Part shown: in pieces, positions 1,073-13,468 of the stretch
How the letters are laid out: each line of letters begins with the position of its first letter
Numbering within the stretch: the first letter of the stretch is position 1
Source of the DNA: a virus
DNA: 21,540 nucleotides
IMG/VR virus record: IMGVR_UViG_3300008050_000383
Coordinates: 1 to 21,540 of that record
Direction: 5' to 3' (one strand)
Notes under the pieces: model-generated
What the model was told of the DNA's origin: nothing
The model's database searches: none
What the model saw: only the letters and a program-made list of their open reading frames with translations
Position numbers and translations under genes: made by a program

Positions 1073-1128
1073 TTCCTCTTGTATGTACAATACACCCTCA
1101 GATTTTCTCGTAAAATTTTCCCTAATGC

Positions 1129-1164
1129 AAAAAAAAAGACCCGCCTATCTCTTGACAGGGGGTC
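1129..1164 (-). terminator. Intrinsic terminator, leftward
   Basis: Read leftward, positions 1164-1138 fold into an 11-bp stem (one G-U pair, one bulged C) with an AAGA loop, followed by nine U residues (1137-1129). This is a textbook Rho-independent terminator. It stops leftward transcripts from the promoter at 1361-1333 and gives the 3' end of the candidate RNA. The TTGACA visible on the top strand at 1152 is part of this stem. Confidence 0.82.
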
Positions 1165-1203
1165 GGACCGGGGTACCTATGAAGGTTATCGTGTAGTTAC
1201 TAG

Positions 1204-1290
1204 AAAAAAGAGGAGTAGATAGCAATATTTATTTTGCTATAGACCTTGACAAAAGGGACCTCGGCGGGCACCTAAGCAGGCTACTCCTCT
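1204..1290 (-). terminator. Attenuator-like branched stem with U-run
   Basis: AGAGGAGTAG at 1209-1218 and CTACTCCTCT at 1281-1290 form a perfect 10-bp inverted repeat. Within it, ATAGCAA / TTGCTAT (1219-1225, 1234-1240) forms a second stem beside the first. Only in the leftward direction is the outer stem followed by a U-run (1208-1204). The 62-base interior is long for a classic terminator, so it may be a regulated attenuator or simply part of a folded RNA. Confidence 0.5.
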
Positions 1291-1332
1291 AAGGATGGGT
1301 ATACATATAGGAACCCCGGAAGGGGTAATGAA

Positions 1333-1361
1333 ATTATAAACACATTTGCCACCCCTGTCAA
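1333..1361 (-). promoter_or_regulatory. Leftward perfect-consensus sigma-70 promoter
   Basis: Leftward -35 TTGACA (1361-1356), a 17-bp spacer (1355-1339) and -10 TATAAT (1338-1333) match the housekeeping sigma-70 consensus at all 12 positions with ideal spacing. A/T tracts lie immediately upstream (1362-1418). The predicted start is near A1326, exactly at the base of a hairpin. Confidence 0.87.
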
Positions 1362-1477: not shown

Positions 1478-1996
1478 ATGCTCTACGGCTTCGACAAAAC
1501 AAAGAATAGTAAGGGTGTTGTCCGTACTAAGTCCCTGTTCCTAGAGTTGGTTTATCTTACTCCAGAGAATGCTATCTTCACTCTCAAGGACGAAGATCAT
1601 ACTCATAAGGGTGTGCACTATCTCTCTCTGTCGAAGCTATACATGTCGATGGTTCCGAATGATCCTACCGAGTATACCTTTGCTCAGACGGTCTTTGGTA
1701 ACTGGCATGTGTGGGACACCATCCGTAATGCCCCTCAACTGAAGGGTCACTACAAGAGATGGAAGAGAGAGGCAGAGATCAAAGTGAAGTCTCAGGCAAT
1801 CATGGCTATTGCTCAGGAGATGAATGATGGTGGTCGAAGCTCCTTCTCTGCTGCTAAACTTCTGTTGGACCGTGGTTGGATTGAGAAGACCACAGCCAGC
1901 AAGAAGAAGAAACAGTCTGAAGAAGCAGCCCTGAACAACGAGGCATTACAGTTGTTAGGTGAAGACGCAAAACGACTCGGGTTGAAGGTTAATTAA
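1478..1996 (+). CDS. terS: Putative terminase small subunit
   Basis: The 172-residue product is the first rightward gene. It probably recognises the DNA packaging site and recruits the large terminase. The call rests on its C-terminal half: a basic helical segment (HYKRWKREAEIKVKSQ), then SAAKLLLDRGWIEKTTASKKKK and an acidic/helical tail, the layout of small terminases in T7-like marine phages. The N-terminal half is unfamiliar, and at 172 residues it is longer than T7 gp18 (89). The start has a strong GGAGGA ribosome site. The stop overlaps the next start by one base (TAATG), so translation of the fibre gene is likely coupled. It is separated from the large terminase by about 5.6 kb of receptor-binding and small genes. 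A DNA-binding regulator is the main alternative. Confidence 0.65.
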   Translation: MLYGFDKTKNSKGVVRTKSLFLELVYLTPENAIFTLKDEDHTHKGVHYLSLSKLYMSMVPNDPTEYTFAQTVFGNWHVWDTIRNAPQLKGHYKRWKREAEIKVKSQAIMAIAQEMNDGGRSSFSAAKLLLDRGWIEKTTASKKKKQSEEAALNNEALQLLGEDAKRLGLKVN

Positions 1997-4065
1997 TGGC
2001 TAAAAAAGCGACACTGACCGACATCTCTACGGGGTGGGCATCTCTGTCCACCCTGAATGGTAACTTCACTGCACTCAACGATGCACTGGACAATACTCTG
2101 TCTCTGGACGGTAGTACACCAAATGCCATGACCGCTGACTTGGATATGAACTCCAAGGATATCATTAATACTGGCACGGTTAATACATCAGCCCTAAAGC
2201 TAGATGGTGCACTTGTATCTGCCGGGGACTTGAGTAGTGCAGGAGCAACCCTACACTCTGACGATCACACAGGAGACGGAAGTACAGTAAACTTCTCTAT
2301 GACCTATGCACCAGTTATCAAGGATAATACACAGGTCTATATTGATGGTGTCTATCAGGAGAAGTCTACCTACTCTATCTCAGGAACGACCCTTACCTTC
2401 TCCGAGGCCCCTCCCCTCAACGCAGGTATCGAGATTGTCGTCACTAAAACTCTGGACTTTGGTGCAGAGGATGCTGCAAATGTATCCTACACACAGGGTG
2501 GTACAGATTCCACTAACCGTACTGTTCTAGCCAAGCTACAGGAGTTTGTATCGGTCAAGGACTTTGGTGCTGTCGGTGACGGCGTGACGGATGATATAGA
2601 TGCAATCGAAAATGCAATTATACATGCTGTAGACTCTAATAACTTCCAAGTATTTTTTCCAGCCGGAACTTACCTAATCTCATCTGGCATCCCACTTGTT
2701 AAAAGAGTAAAGCTATTTGGTTTAAATCCAGATACTACAATCATTAAATGCAATGGATCAACATCAGCTATTTATACAGCTACATTATCTGGATCAACAT
2801 TTACTGATAATTTAGATGCTACACTTGGAGATATAACTTCAAAAGCAAAATCTGCACAAAGATGTTCTATAGAAAATTTAGGTATTCAACACACTGGTTC
2901 TGTTTCTGATCAATCTCCATCTGGAATAGATTGGGATGAAACTGTTCAGCTTGTTGGCTGCTATGATGGTTATTTTTCAAATCTTTCTATAAGCAATCAA
3001 ACAAATGACATTGGTGATTTTCATGTAAAATTTGCATGGAGAACTAAGATGTATAATATTTCTACAAGCCGAGGAAGTTCCTATACTGGCGGGTCTGCAA
3101 TTAAAGTTGGTTCCCAAACCAATAGTGCTATCATGCAGGGATGTAGCGCATACGGTGCGTATGACATTGGGATTGATATTTTTTCTGTTGAAGGCTTTAC
3201 AGTTATAGAGCCAAATCCAGAATTAGCTTCTACTGCTGGTCTAAGATTTTCTGGAAATTCTGTCAAAGTGCTTGGCGGGTATTATGAAGGAAATGGAATT
3301 GATATACAAATTGGCAATGGCTCAAGCCCTGCTAATTCTTTTTTAGTAGATCATCCTTGGGTCAATGGGGCATCGGGTGCTACCAATGGGATATGGTTAG
3401 ATGCAGCCGTTAGAGGTCAGTTAAATTCCCCTTACTTTACTGGCTCTTATTCTGCATCAAAGTTTAAAACTACAAGTTCAGCAACTTATAATTATAATAC
3501 CAAAATTATTGTTCACTCTGGAAATGCAGATACTTATGATCTTTCCGCAAATGGATTGATTGGAGGCAGACATAGACTTGAGGTAAGGGGCGATGATTAT
3601 AGTGCTGAAGATTATCGTGGCTTTGCAGAATATTCTACTAGCAGCGGAAATAGAATAAGTATTTACCGTGAGGGAAGTTTTACTCCAACATTAATTGCGG
3701 GAACAAGTGGAACAATTACATTAGATAGTTCTCAAGATTTGTTGCAATGGACTTTAATGGATCGAGTTGTGACTATTAAAGGTCGCATTACAGTATCCTC
3801 TGTCTCAAGTCCGACTGGCACTCTAAATCTTGAGAATTTACCATTCAGCGTTGCTACAGAAGATGAGCGGTCTGAATATTCAGCCCTTCAAGTAGAAACT
3901 GGATTTACGTCAGTCTATAGATTTTTTGGTTCAGCCCAGCTTGCGGGAGCAAGTGAGATGCGAATTTATGCAAAAGATGGGTCAGGAAACTTTGTAACTA
4001 CTCCAGCAGATCAAATTGCTGCAGGTGATCTTTGGATTAGTGGCAGCTACTTAACAGATGAATGA
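1996..4065 (+). CDS. Tail fibre / spike protein with pectate-lyase-like domain
   Basis: This 689-residue protein probably binds the host surface. Residues 1-185 look like a phage fibre N-terminus: the opening TDISTGWASLSTLNGNFTAL, then a segment with STVNFSM and VYIDGVYQEKSTY seen in podovirus and cyanophage-like fibres. Residues 189-200 are DFGAVGDGVTDD, the hallmark entry of pectate-lyase/beta-helix spikes; the central region is Gly/Ser/Asn-rich and consistent with a right-handed beta-helix. From about residue 559 (EGSFTPTLI) there is a C-terminal domain that resembles the one in the next gene. Base composition falls abruptly at the DFGAVGDGVTDD motif. In counted 60-base lines G+C is 53% at 2401-2460 but 28% at 2701-2760, which suggests exchange of the receptor-binding part. 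Enzymatic activity is not evident from sequence. Confidence 0.88.
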   Translation: MAKKATLTDISTGWASLSTLNGNFTALNDALDNTLSLDGSTPNAMTADLDMNSKDIINTGTVNTSALKLDGALVSAGDLSSAGATLHSDDHTGDGSTVNFSMTYAPVIKDNTQVYIDGVYQEKSTYSISGTTLTFSEAPPLNAGIEIVVTKTLDFGAEDAANVSYTQGGTDSTNRTVLAKLQEFVSVKDFGAVGDGVTDDIDAIENAIIHAVDSNNFQVFFPAGTYLISSGIPLVKRVKLFGLNPDTTIIKCNGSTSAIYTATLSGSTFTDNLDATLGDITSKAKSAQRCSIENLGIQHTGSVSDQSPSGIDWDETVQLVGCYDGYFSNLSISNQTNDIGDFHVKFAWRTKMYNISTSRGSSYTGGSAIKVGSQTNSAIMQGCSAYGAYDIGIDIFSVEGFTVIEPNPELASTAGLRFSGNSVKVLGGYYEGNGIDIQIGNGSSPANSFLVDHPWVNGASGATNGIWLDAAVRGQLNSPYFTGSYSASKFKTTSSATYNYNTKIIVHSGNADTYDLSANGLIGGRHRLEVRGDDYSAEDYRGFAEYSTSSGNRISIYREGSFTPTLIAGTSGTITLDSSQDLLQWTLMDRVVTIKGRITVSSVSSPTGTLNLENLPFSVATEDERSEYSALQVETGFTSVYRFFGSAQLAGASEMRIYAKDGSGNFVTTPADQIAAGDLWISGSYLTDE

Positions 4066-4844: not shown

Positions 4845-4855
4845 GAGTTTCCTTG

Positions 4856-6640
4856 GTGGCACTGACAAAAGTAAACAATCGAATGGTTGATGATGCTTTC
4901 ATCAATATCAAGGATTATGGTGCGGTTGGTGATGGTGTTACTGACGACACTACAGCAATTCAAAATGCACTTGCTGACGGGAAAACAAATAACAGAACTG
5001 TATTTGCGCCGTATGGCGTTTATCTAATCTCAAGCACATTAGATTGTCATTTGGTTTCATTTGTTGGTGAGAACAAAGGAGACTGGACTGTTCTTAAATG
5101 TGATCCTGCATTTTCTGGGACTGGTATGTTGCGGGTTGGTCAAGAAACTGCTGGTACAAGCTTAACTGATCGGGGCATTGTTGAAAATTTTACATTAAAT
5201 ATGGATAATGCACCGCAAAATACCAAAGGCGTTTATTGTGATCATGGTGTATATTACAAAACAATTAGAAATATAAATGCGTCTACTGCTCTGCTTTCAA
5301 CTTCAGATACAATTACTAAAAATTTAATTGGGTTTGATTTGCAGATTTCTTCTTCAGCAACTCAAGGATTATACTATCTTCAAATAGATAATCTTATTGC
5401 TTCTGCAATGTTCAAAGGATTTAACACCTCTGGTAATGCAAACGATGGACTAAGAGTTTCTAACATAGGTGGCATCCGTTGTTGGCTCTGTGTGCAGTCT
5501 ATAACTATTAAAGATGCAGAGCTAAATACATTCGGCACTTTAGCTGTTAACTACCATCGAGATGATCTTGACACTTCTGGTGCTACTCCGTCTCAGTGGG
5601 ACATCTACATAACTGACAAAAAGAATGTAATTGAAAATGTATTCTTACATTCTGATACTGGTTCACAAGGTACTAAGCCACTAATTTTTACCACAGCTAA
5701 TCATCAATTTTTAAACATAACGCCGTTAACTACTGAACATGATACAGATGCAAATGATGTAGTTCAGATTATCAATGACTCTGGAGTTAGGCAATCAGGC
5801 AGTAAAAAAGAAACTGGCTACAATGTTTTGTTTGATAATCAAATGCAAACAGGTAGCATCAGTGGGCCGCAAACTCAAAAGAACCTAATGGTTAATGGTG
5901 ATTTTATTATCTTTGAAAATGGCAATGCTAATATATCTAATGATACTGATTTTGCATTTGCTTGGAGTTCGTATAATCCAGAGGCAAGTGCAACCGTAGG
6001 AATTACAAATGCTACTGGAGCTACGTCAGCAAGTATTTATGATTCTAGTTGCTTGCTTTCTGTGGCAAGTCCTGTTGCTGGTAATCTCTATGGAATTAAA
6101 CAAGATTTAGCAGATCAACTAAAACTATCATCCAGTCTTTTAAGCACACTATATAATAATTTTGAGGCTTTGACGGTTGGTGTTAGGTGTAGACCTTTAA
6201 GTACAAATGCTGCGCCAATGAGAGTAAGGATTGAAGTAGCCGATGGTGTAGCTACCACCAACGAAGATTACCTAATTTCATATAATCAAAATACAGACAG
6301 TGGCACAAACGATGAGCCAATTTTTGGAGGTAATGCCGATTGGTGGACTTTAATTCATAATATTTCTTTGTCTGATGCTGCAAGCAAATTAGAAATAAAG
6401 TTTGGATACCACCCAACAGACACAGCTAATGCTTCTATCCATATTGACGGTATATATCTAATTGCTGGAGCGCATACGCAGTATGGAGTAAAGCCATACA
6501 TTGAAACACCTGATGTATTTAGACCGGCTGGAGTAAAAGCAAATACAAACACACCGTCAGGCGCAACAGCAAAGGCAATACCAGTAGCACTCATTGATGG
6601 GTCGGTTGTATGGGTTCCTGCATATTCGTCACAATGGTAA
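4856..6640 (+). CDS. Tail spike, pectate-lyase superfamily
   Basis: This protein of about 594 residues is a likely receptor-binding or polysaccharide-degrading spike. The start MALTKVNNRMVDD (GTG at 4856, AGGAG eight bases upstream) fits the family; a TTG at 4853 would add one residue. Residues 20-31 read DYGAVGDGVTDD, the pectate-lyase/beta-helix entry motif, followed by TTAIQNAL and VFAPYGVYLISSTL, typical of the first helical turns. The region from NLMVNGDFIIFENG to about GIYLIAGAH looks like a carbohydrate-binding jelly-roll domain. The end, AIPVALIDGSVVWVPAYSSQW, resembles a small C-terminal motif common on phage fibres. A catalytic triad cannot be assigned by eye. A second beta-helix protein two genes after the first suggests two alternative host receptors. 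Confidence 0.87.
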   Translation: MALTKVNNRMVDDAFINIKDYGAVGDGVTDDTTAIQNALADGKTNNRTVFAPYGVYLISSTLDCHLVSFVGENKGDWTVLKCDPAFSGTGMLRVGQETAGTSLTDRGIVENFTLNMDNAPQNTKGVYCDHGVYYKTIRNINASTALLSTSDTITKNLIGFDLQISSSATQGLYYLQIDNLIASAMFKGFNTSGNANDGLRVSNIGGIRCWLCVQSITIKDAELNTFGTLAVNYHRDDLDTSGATPSQWDIYITDKKNVIENVFLHSDTGSQGTKPLIFTTANHQFLNITPLTTEHDTDANDVVQIINDSGVRQSGSKKETGYNVLFDNQMQTGSISGPQTQKNLMVNGDFIIFENGNANISNDTDFAFAWSSYNPEASATVGITNATGATSASIYDSSCLLSVASPVAGNLYGIKQDLADQLKLSSSLLSTLYNNFEALTVGVRCRPLSTNAAPMRVRIEVADGVATTNEDYLISYNQNTDSGTNDEPIFGGNADWWTLIHNISLSDAASKLEIKFGYHPTDTANASIHIDGIYLIAGAHTQYGVKPYIETPDVFRPAGVKANTNTPSGATAKAIPVALIDGSVVWVPAYSSQW

Positions 6641-7573: not shown

Positions 7574-9105
7574 TGTCAGTTACCGTACAGGAAATTAGGG
7601 AAGCGGCTGAGAATGATCTTACTACCTTTATCAAACTGGTCGCACCAGAACAAGTTCTCGGTCAATGCCATGGGGAAGTATGTTCGTGGTGGACGAGAGA
7701 AGCTGCAAAGTCTCACCAACTTCTCCTATTTCCCCGAGATCACGGCAAGTCTCGTCTTGTTGCCTATCGAGTGGCTTGGGAACTTACCCGTGATCCTACC
7801 CTAAGAATACTCTACATCTCTGCCACAGCTAACCTTGCTGAGAAACAACTAGGCTTCATCAAGGGAATTCTAACCTCTCGTATCTACCAGAGATACTGGC
7901 CTGAGCACGTTAACTCCGAGGAGGGTAAGAGAGCACGGTGGACTACCTCAGAGATTATGCTAGACCACCCAAGTCGTAAGCAAGAAAATGTCAGAGACCC
8001 ATCTATCTTTACTGGTGGTTTGACGACATCACTAACCGGCCTCCACTGTGACATTGCTGTTCTGGACGATGTGGTCGTTTTCGAGAACGCATACACGGGT
8101 GAGGGCCGAGGGAAGGTTAAGAGTCAGTACTCCCTTCTCTCTTCTATCGAAGGAGCAGAGGCAAAGGAATGGGTAGTAGGTACACGTTACCACCCTATTG
8201 ATTTGTACAACGATCTCCTTCAAATGGTCGAAGACCAGTATAGTGAAGAGGGTGAGAAGATAGGCGAAGAGAATATCTACGAGGTATTTGAACGTCCTGT
8301 TGAAGACCTAGGAGAGGGAACCGGGGAGTTTCTATGGCCTCGACAGCAGCGTAAGGACGGAAAGTGGTTCGGATTCGACAAGAAAATCCTTGCTAAGAAA
8401 AGGGGTCAGTACCTAGACAAGGGTCAGTTCCGTGCTCAGTACTACAACGATCCCACCGACCCGGACAACGTACCAGTAGGCTCGGACAAGTTCCAGTACT
8501 TTGACCGTAAACACTTGGCTCAAGAGAATGGTTACTGGTTCTACAGGGATGATAGGCTGAATGTCTTTGCTGCTGTAGACTTTGCATTCAGCCTCAGGAA
8601 AAAGGCAGACTACACAGCTATTGTCGTAGTAGGTATTGATAACTCTGGGAACATCTTCATACTAGATATCGACAGGTTTAAGACTGATCGTATCTCAGAA
8701 TACTTTGAGCACATACTCCACTTAAACAACAAGTGGGGCTTCCGTAAGTTGAGGGCAGAGACTACCGTAGCCCAGAAGGCTATTGTTCGTCAGCTAAAAG
8801 ACCTCATAAAGGAACATGGACTTGCCTTGTCTATTGATGAGTACCGTCCAAACAAAGGCTCGAAGGAAGAACGAATAGCTTCTATCCTAGAGCCTCGTTA
8901 TGACAACCTCTCTATCTGGCACTACCGTGGAGGTAACATTCAGGTACTAGAGGAAGAGTTGTCGAGTAGGAACCCTCCTCACGACGATGTAAAGGATGCT
9001 CTTGCCGCTGTAGTAGATATGGCAGTTAAGCCAGCAAAGAATTACAACAGGTCAAAACGGACTAATATTGTGTGGGCCGATAACAGATTCAGAGGTGCTG
9101 GATAA
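7573..9105 (+). CDS. terL: Terminase large subunit (ATPase and nuclease)
   Basis: The 510-residue protein is the DNA-packaging motor and headful or end-cutting nuclease, acting at the portal vertex. The N-terminal ATPase shows a Walker A-type loop FPRDHGKS at residues 53-60 and a Walker B IAVLDDVV at 161-168. ILYISATANLAEKQ (79-92) lies between them, and VVGTRYHP (201-208) matches the motif that follows in T7-like terminases. The RNase H-like nuclease is indicated by AAVDFAFS (333-340, Asp336), ADYTAIVVVGID (345-356) and the C-terminal PHDDVKDALA (469-478). It is somewhat shorter than T7 gp19 (586). The start is GTG, overlapping the upstream stop by one base, and the stop overlaps the portal start in TAATG. 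All expected key acidic residues appear intact. Confidence 0.96.
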   Translation: MSVTVQEIREAAENDLTTFIKLVAPEQVLGQCHGEVCSWWTREAAKSHQLLLFPRDHGKSRLVAYRVAWELTRDPTLRILYISATANLAEKQLGFIKGILTSRIYQRYWPEHVNSEEGKRARWTTSEIMLDHPSRKQENVRDPSIFTGGLTTSLTGLHCDIAVLDDVVVFENAYTGEGRGKVKSQYSLLSSIEGAEAKEWVVGTRYHPIDLYNDLLQMVEDQYSEEGEKIGEENIYEVFERPVEDLGEGTGEFLWPRQQRKDGKWFGFDKKILAKKRGQYLDKGQFRAQYYNDPTDPDNVPVGSDKFQYFDRKHLAQENGYWFYRDDRLNVFAAVDFAFSLRKKADYTAIVVVGIDNSGNIFILDIDRFKTDRISEYFEHILHLNNKWGFRKLRAETTVAQKAIVRQLKDLIKEHGLALSIDEYRPNKGSKEERIASILEPRYDNLSIWHYRGGNIQVLEEELSSRNPPHDDVKDALAAVVDMAVKPAKNYNRSKRTNIVWADNRFRGAG

Positions 9106-10847
9106 TGAATGAGATAGACCTAGCAACTATCATCAACCCCGACAATCTTGCTGTAGAAATCAGTAGTCGCTGGACCAGTTGGGGTCAGCACCGTGTGAAG
9201 TGGATGGAGGAAAAGAAAGAACTCCGTAACTACCTCTATGCCACAGACACTCGTACTACATCTAATGCCGTGCTGCCGTGGTCAAACTCCACTACGACAC
9301 CAAAGCTGACACAGATCATGGATAACCTCCATGCCAACTACTTCGCAACTATCTTTCCTCGTCAGCAGTGGATGCGGTTTGAGGCACATACCGAGGAGAG
9401 TGCTACAAAGCAGAAGAGAGATACTATCCAAGCCTATATGGATACAAAGCTCCGTCAGTCAGACTTCACAAATACAGTTTCAGACCTACTCTATGACTGG
9501 ATACAGTACGGTAATTGCTTTGCTACCCTATCTTGGGAACAGAAGTACTTGACATCCGAGGCCAATGAGTCTATAATTGACTACATCGGTCCTAAACTTA
9601 TTCGTATCTCTCCCTTTGATATCGTATTTAACCCCACCGCAGCTAATTTCAAGGACACTCCGAAGATTATTCGTAGCCTCAAGACGCTTGGGGAGATTAA
9701 ACGGATGGTGGAGGAGAACCCAGAGAACAAGTACCTTGAAAAGGCTCTTGATCGTAGTGTAGCTGCCCGTGCTGCTGTTCTGAATGGACATGGAGACGAC
9801 CGTTATAAGGATAGTGGGTTCGTTGCTGATGGTTTCAACAGTATTCGGCACTACTACGAGTCTGATCTGGTAGAAATCCTTACCTTCTACGGAAGTGTAT
9901 ACGATCAGGAGGCCCAGAAGTACCACAGTAACAGGATTATCACGGTACTCGACAGGGCTTTTGTACTGGACAATGCACAAAACCCCAGTTGGTTAGCAGG
10001 CTCTCCTATATTCCATGCAGGCTGGAGGCCCCGTCCAGACAATCTCTATGCTATGGGCCCACTAGACAACTTGGTTGGTATGCAGTACCGTATCGACCAC
10101 CTAGAGAACCTCAAGGCAGACGTATTTGATCAAATTGCCTACCCGATCCTGAAAGTAAGGGGAGACGTAGAGGACTTTGACTTTGAACCAGGTGCTCGTA
10201 TATACATGGGTGAAGAGGGTGATGTAGGTTACCTAGCTCCTGATGCCACAGCACTACAGGCCGACATGCAGATTGCGGTTCTGGAAGCTAAGATGGAAGA
10301 AATGGCCGGTGCTCCAAAGCAGGCGATGGGCTTCCGTACTCCGGGTGAGAAGACCGCATTTGAAGTACAGATGCTCCAGAACTCAGCCTCCCGTATCTTC
10401 GAGCATAAGACAGCCCACTTTGAAAGAGTATTCCTTGAGCCTGTCCTAAACAATATGTTGGAACTGGCAAGACGTAACCTGAATATTTCTGATGTTATCC
10501 GTTCACTGGACGCAGACTTCGGTGTTGAAATGTTCAAGACAATTACCAAAGACGACATCTCGGGTAACGGCAAGATTGTTCCTATTGGTGCCAGACACTT
10601 TGCTGAACGAGCACGAAGGGTGCAGAACCTACAGCAGTTGTATCAACTTAAACTGGCTGATCCTACTGTAGCTTCACATATGTCTGGTAAAGAGTTTGCT
10701 CGTATCCTGTCAGAAGAACTTGGGGAACCGACCCTGTTCAGTGAGAACGTGATGGTCACAGAACAGATGGAAACACAACAGGCCCTGCAAGAGGCCGATG
10801 TACGGAACCAAGAAGACCTTATGACCAAACAGGAGTTGGGAATCTAA
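9105..10847 (+). CDS. Portal (head-tail connector) protein
   Basis: The 580-residue product forms the ring at the capsid vertex through which DNA is packaged and ejected; T7 gp8 has 536 residues. Typical T7-like portal segments are visible: an N-terminal part with LPWSNSTTTPKLTQIMDNLH and MRFEAH, a central YDQ/HAGWRPRPDNLYAMGPLDNLVGMQ stretch (split here as two remembered motifs), and a long helical part with GAPKQAMGFRTPGEKTAFEV and RIFEHKTAHFERVFLEP. Its position directly after the large terminase and before the scaffold supports the call. Both ends overlap neighbours by one base. A perfect-consensus sigma-70 promoter is embedded in the coding sequence at 9549-9577. Confidence 0.94.
   Translation: MNEIDLATIINPDNLAVEISSRWTSWGQHRVKWMEEKKELRNYLYATDTRTTSNAVLPWSNSTTTPKLTQIMDNLHANYFATIFPRQQWMRFEAHTEESATKQKRDTIQAYMDTKLRQSDFTNTVSDLLYDWIQYGNCFATLSWEQKYLTSEANESIIDYIGPKLIRISPFDIVFNPTAANFKDTPKIIRSLKTLGEIKRMVEENPENKYLEKALDRSVAARAAVLNGHGDDRYKDSGFVADGFNSIRHYYESDLVEILTFYGSVYDQEAQKYHSNRIITVLDRAFVLDNAQNPSWLAGSPIFHAGWRPRPDNLYAMGPLDNLVGMQYRIDHLENLKADVFDQIAYPILKVRGDVEDFDFEPGARIYMGEEGDVGYLAPDATALQADMQIAVLEAKMEEMAGAPKQAMGFRTPGEKTAFEVQMLQNSASRIFEHKTAHFERVFLEPVLNNMLELARRNLNISDVIRSLDADFGVEMFKTITKDDISGNGKIVPIGARHFAERARRVQNLQQLYQLKLADPTVASHMSGKEFARILSEELGEPTLFSENVMVTEQMETQQALQEADVRNQEDLMTKQELGI
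9549..9577 (+). promoter_or_regulatory. Perfect-consensus sigma-70 promoter inside the portal gene
   Basis: TTGACA (9549-9554), a 17-bp spacer and TATAAT (9572-9577) match the sigma-70 consensus at all 12 bases with ideal spacing, within codons for LTSEANESI. It would give extra transcripts covering the downstream scaffold and major capsid genes. Confidence 0.7.
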
Positions 10848-13440: not shown

Positions 13441-13468
13441 TTGACAGGATTGAAAACTCCTGTATAAT
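13441..13468 (+). promoter_or_regulatory. Sigma-70 promoter for tail genes
   Basis: TTGACA (13441-13446), a 16-bp spacer and TATAAT (13463-13468) are both perfect boxes. The promoter lies 10 bases after the capsid-block hairpin. The predicted start near 13475 would leave a short leader containing AAGGAAGG (13477-13484) before the ATG at 13493. Confidence 0.87.

Follow-up and report, generated by a model that had tools for sequence, protein, structure and literature searches.

The window, a stretch of 21,540 nt of viral DNA analysed at its full length, very probably carries a noncoding transcription unit that stands alone beside the direct terminal repeat (DTR), at the right end of the phage genome. 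The predicted RNA of 198 nt is encoded on the bottom strand with its +1 near 1326 and its 3′ end at a U9 tract near 1129, and its most likely role, proposed here tentatively, is to aid concatemer maturation and packaging. The unit has its own promoter, no ORF and its own terminator, and dozens of related genomes keep the promoter, 5′ hairpin and terminator at the same place, which supports the stand-alone phage noncoding RNA that the initial annotation had offered as one of two options.

The window was assigned to a Veravirus-like podophage of the Cobavirinae (Zobellviridae), with CRP-5, ICBM2 and CRP-4 as the nearest phages based on TerL and other proteins. At the DNA level, comparison with phage records showed weak matches only, pointing to Cobavirinae. 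The genomes of CRP-5, ICBM2 and CRP-4 have two gene arms diverging from the genome ends, and the arms also diverge in the cobavirus SIO1, which has no RNA polymerase gene (PMC6775973); the annotations of CRP-5 and ICBM2 list no T7-type RNA polymerase. PacBio reads were used to map the DTRs of ICBM1 and ICBM2 (PMC6775973), both of which start with (A/G)TTGTACATACAG. The same box was found on the bottom strand of the window with its start at 1091, a feature overlooked by the initial annotation, and the DTR start predicted there (ATTGTACATACAAGAGGAACCCCC, 1091-1068) falls on the base equivalent to that which starts the DTRs of ICBM1 and ICBM2 (PMC6775973). The window therefore spans joined genome ends. 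The late arm would lie to the right, the DTR would run from 1091 leftward with the early arm beyond it, and, judged by homology, the RNA gene would be found at the right end only and would not be part of the DTR. The window contig has a single collapsed DTR copy, so the DTR length is not readable from it. A predicted divergent late promoter for the right arm (TTGACT-N18-TACTAT with a TG before the -10, 1419-1448, top strand) precedes a small-terminase-like (terS-like) gene (1478-1996, top strand; phrog_8035, unknown function), a homologue of which is directly upstream of terL in phage GP100. Searches with this window protein alone returned no matches, and an alignment (A1) was needed. TerL carries a T7-type RNase H domain (PF22530). 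In addition, two pectate-lyase-fold tailspike-like genes, both with PF12708, were located close together on the top strand (1996-4065 and 4853-6640).

Using the alignment A1 of the adjacent terS-like protein, 171 IMG/VR relatives were matched and 80 loci were kept, which gave 33 distinct RNAs for analysis after near-copies were removed. The promoter of the RNA, a host sigma70-type TTGACA-N17-TATAAT, was confirmed on the bottom strand at 1361-1333 with 12 of 12 consensus positions. It is conserved in relatives, with 12/12 positions in 24 of the distinct RNAs and 11/12 in five, and the spacer is 17 bp in 31. Exact TTGACA-N17-TATAAT sites occurred three times in 21.5 kb compared to an expected 0.00 from 100 dinucleotide shuffles. 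The consensus -10 of the promoter supplied here is unusual for an alphaproteobacterial host because the -7T is missing from most sigma70 promoters in alphaproteobacteria (PMC8407463); the promoter is presumably strong in such a host. A perfect TTGACA-N17-TATAAT was also present within the portal gene (9105-10847) at 9549-9577 on the top strand, with no exact match at the corresponding place in CRP-5, and a perfect promoter 3′ of the capsid gene (13441-13468, top strand) has counterparts in CRP-5 (28078-28106) and ICBM2 (28591-28619). The source contig of one relative (L145, 39867 bases) has identical promoter-like sequence at both ends (140-167 and 39757-39784), which suggests an assembled terminal repeat.

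Inside the RNA (1326-1129), no ORF of at least 50 aa was found on the bottom strand, in agreement with the initial description of about 198 bases without a credible protein. The compact fold proposed for it was also borne out, with an MFE of -66.7 kcal/mol, a z of -5.2 and 0 of 200 shuffles equally stable; minus the terminator, the z was -4.6. The transcript starts with a predicted 5′ hairpin, ACCCC-UUCC-GGGGU (1326-1313), with compensatory changes in relatives. This is followed by CCUAUAUGUAUACCC (1311-1297), by eye the counterpart of a (C)CUAUAGUAUAUAC segment located after the 5′ hairpin in many lineages. An internal 10-bp stem (1290-1281 with 1218-1209) and subsequent U6 (1209-1204) may form a weak internal terminator, which could end the RNA early at approximately 120 nt, near the RNA size of the relatives L014 and L018 (107-119 nt). 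The predicted intrinsic terminator (GACCCCCTGTCAAGAGATAGGCGGGTC followed by T9, 1164-1129) has the 11-bp stem and U9 noted previously, with one bulged C in addition to the 11 pairs. In terminator stems of L132, L146, L150, L153, L172 and other lineages, a tandem UU/UU internal loop (CCUUGG...CCUUGG) recurred while its flanking pairs change. The Rfam check suggested by the initial annotation was run on the window and 13 relatives and showed no match above threshold; matches to rli60 and rpfG were at chance level, and the models of 6S RNA and phi29 pRNA gave no match in this set. The RNA family is absent from Rfam 15.

The RNA length across relatives ranged from approximately 105 to 275 nt. The unit was present in the 33 distinct RNAs. 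In the terS-like protein tree, the strong promoter was present throughout the Veravirus-type side with one sub-branch where it is weakened to TTGACA-N17-TACCCT or less, and the window falls near this sub-branch. The RNA unit was absent from the side of the tree occupied by the sister genus Siovirus, and no such unit was found in MEP401, another Zobellviridae phage. A pattern search for further near kin of the window RNA recovered only the L014/L120/L121 species. In three lineages (L167-L169), an extra gene separates the promoter from the terS-like gene, with the RNA unit still beside the DTR.

The distance between the U-tract and the DTR start was exactly 38 bp in 16 of the 33 lineages and 39 bp in another three, and never less than 38 bp. 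In the window, this distance corresponds to a conserved 38-bp segment (GCAT...GAAAA...AGAAAATnTT..., 1128-1091, bottom strand), which is presumed to be terminase recognition DNA. A T-run followed by a [GA]CAT-like sequence was observed approximately 38 bp before the DTR in the window (1122-1137) and relatives; it is kept in several lineages with the terminator further upstream (L037, L040, L063 and L123) and is missing from Siovirus.

In T7, polymerase paused at the concatemer junction recruits gp18/gp19 (PMC3276506). In the proposed mechanism, host RNA polymerase would make a short stable RNA from the near-perfect promoter and would be halted at the terminator, 38 bp from the terminase cut and at the border of the terminase site; the halted polymerase would help to mature and package concatemers in the style of T7 phiOR and its concatemer junction. 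The late genes point away from the DTR, which would leave the RNA unit as the sole source of strong transcription towards the junction. A packaging role is inferred from this position, the T7 precedent and the T7-type RNase H domain found in TerL; it would also agree with the 38-bp spacing, the retention of the unit in the 33 distinct RNAs and its place by the DTR despite the inserted gene. However, the terminator is 46-97 bp from the DTR in the remaining 14 lineages. Siovirus lacks the RNA unit but shares the cut-site DNA, and therefore the unit is not generally needed for packaging; a strict packaging requirement is excluded for the subfamily as a whole. The wider proposal, put forward with more reserve than the packaging role itself, is that a T7-type phage lacking an RNA polymerase of its own has its concatemer junction marked, and its maturation or packaging controlled, by a structured RNA gene that the host transcribes and that is set at a fixed distance from the terminase cut, whether through the halted host polymerase, the RNA or both.

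A single global alignment of all RNAs was too divergent, with RNAalifold returning the terminator only, and only the 5′ hairpin was therefore used to count covariation. This part of the covariance analysis recommended by the initial annotation did find compensatory changes: in six distinct 14-mers, which were hand-picked and few, 96.7% of cells pair, both-side changes occurred in three of five pairs, and the score was reached in 0 of 500 shuffles. Within the first 40 nt, the best hairpin had a mean of -6.1 kcal/mol compared to -2.0 kcal/mol in shuffles. The covariation appears to be good but not final evidence for RNA-level constraint, and the compensatory changes suggest that the RNA product matters beyond the act of transcription alone. 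The constraint on the RNA itself makes a phage small RNA acting in trans almost as probable as the packaging-junction model, though likewise short of an even chance. Such an RNA would use a conserved, probably unpaired CAGAUUC-type motif to bind a protein or an mRNA of the host or phage, and its place by the DTR would be incidental or serve timing. This agrees with a stable RNA with a covarying 5′ hairpin and a 3′ terminator hairpin, with the mean fold z (-3.7 with and -1.6 without the terminator), and with the occurrence, in most of the 33 lineages, of a YCAGAUU-type segment before the terminator. Two or three copies of the segment were observed within one RNA in L139 and L176 (GACAGCUUAAGAUUCUAC twice; GUAAACAU(C/U)AGAAUCU three times). 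However, the motif is missing in the window and in its closest relatives, L014 and L018, and CCCGCCGAG takes its place; in addition, no CRP-5 translation start paired with the motif segment better than shuffled sequence. A trans-acting role also leaves the 38-bp spacing unexplained.

T7 phiOR acts in replication, as a primer or in transcriptional activation of the origin. A corresponding role of the promoter and RNA in right-end replication is improbable here; a strong promoter in an AT-rich intergenic region beside the DTR and no annotated phage RNA polymerase gene would suit it, but an intrinsic terminator normally releases the RNA.

The remaining readings, namely an early-operon leader, a pRNA and a 6S RNA, were rejected or ranked low, the latter two with no Rfam match. 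A phi29 pRNA-like structural RNA of the packaging motor is very unlikely, as the location beside the DTR end and the low sequence conservation with a retained 5′ hairpin are set against a length varying from 105 to 275 nt, a T7-like rather than gp16-like TerL and the lack of the RNA in Siovirus.

The second option of the initial annotation, a leftward operon fed by read-through of terminators in the manner of put sites or attenuation, was not supported. As the RNA stops 38 bp short of the DTR, the linear virion genome has the leftward (early) genes at its other end and only the DTR downstream of the RNA. The annotation had seen no comparable promoter before these genes, which holds for consensus quality only, as a lower-consensus promoter was located at 796-768 on the bottom strand (TTGACA-ACTCATATGAGCTGTGT-TAGCGA, N17 spacer). 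It is conserved in L121 with only two differences, and its TAGCGA is missing the -7T, as usual in alphaproteobacteria (PMC8407463). The spacer contains a perfect palindrome, CTCATATGAG, also found in L121, a possible operator. Since the early operon is at the other genome end and has its own conserved promoter, the RNA is not its leader, and a put-like leader requiring antitermination or attenuation has very little probability even though, on a concatemer or assembled contig, the early genes follow past the DTR in the same orientation. On a concatemer, the next unit's early genes would follow downstream, and read-through there may be possible.

Cobaviruses are marine phages with a global distribution and cultured members. 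The annotation of ICBM2 lists protein genes, DTRs and a central terminator only, and the conserved, DTR-phased RNA gene is a previously unrecorded element of marine roseobacter cobavirus genomes. An almost perfect host promoter with a terminator often 38 bases from the predicted packaging cut suggests a host-made transcript linked to genome maturation. The unit gives a way to test how the concatemer junction is marked in T7-type phages that have no RNA polymerase of their own.

Among known systems, the unit resembles phage-encoded intergenic small RNAs in its own promoter, compact fold, Rho-independent terminator and lack of an ORF, but differs from them in its fixed relation to the DTR and as a family outside Rfam 15. 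It shares with the putL/putR antiterminator RNA of HK022 a structured phage RNA at the promoter start with a terminator downstream; however, the put RNA starts a protein-coding early transcript, whereas the window RNA does not and is not an operon leader on virion DNA, and the comparison is by arrangement and not by put sequence. Read-through at put depends on the zinc finger of RNA polymerase. Similar to phi29 pRNA, it is a small phage RNA encoded near a genome end, while it differs in its variable length, its own terminator hairpin, its terminase class and the absence of an Rfam match. Finally, the arrangement is like T7 phiOR/CJ in that a promoter near the right end faces the DTR, both the DTR genome and the TerL are of T7 type, and transcription stops at the junction, here at a predicted terminator. 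In contrast to T7, there is no phage RNA polymerase and the late genes run the opposite way, and the cobavirus unit has a host sigma70 promoter, an intrinsic hairpin terminator and a conserved RNA structure.
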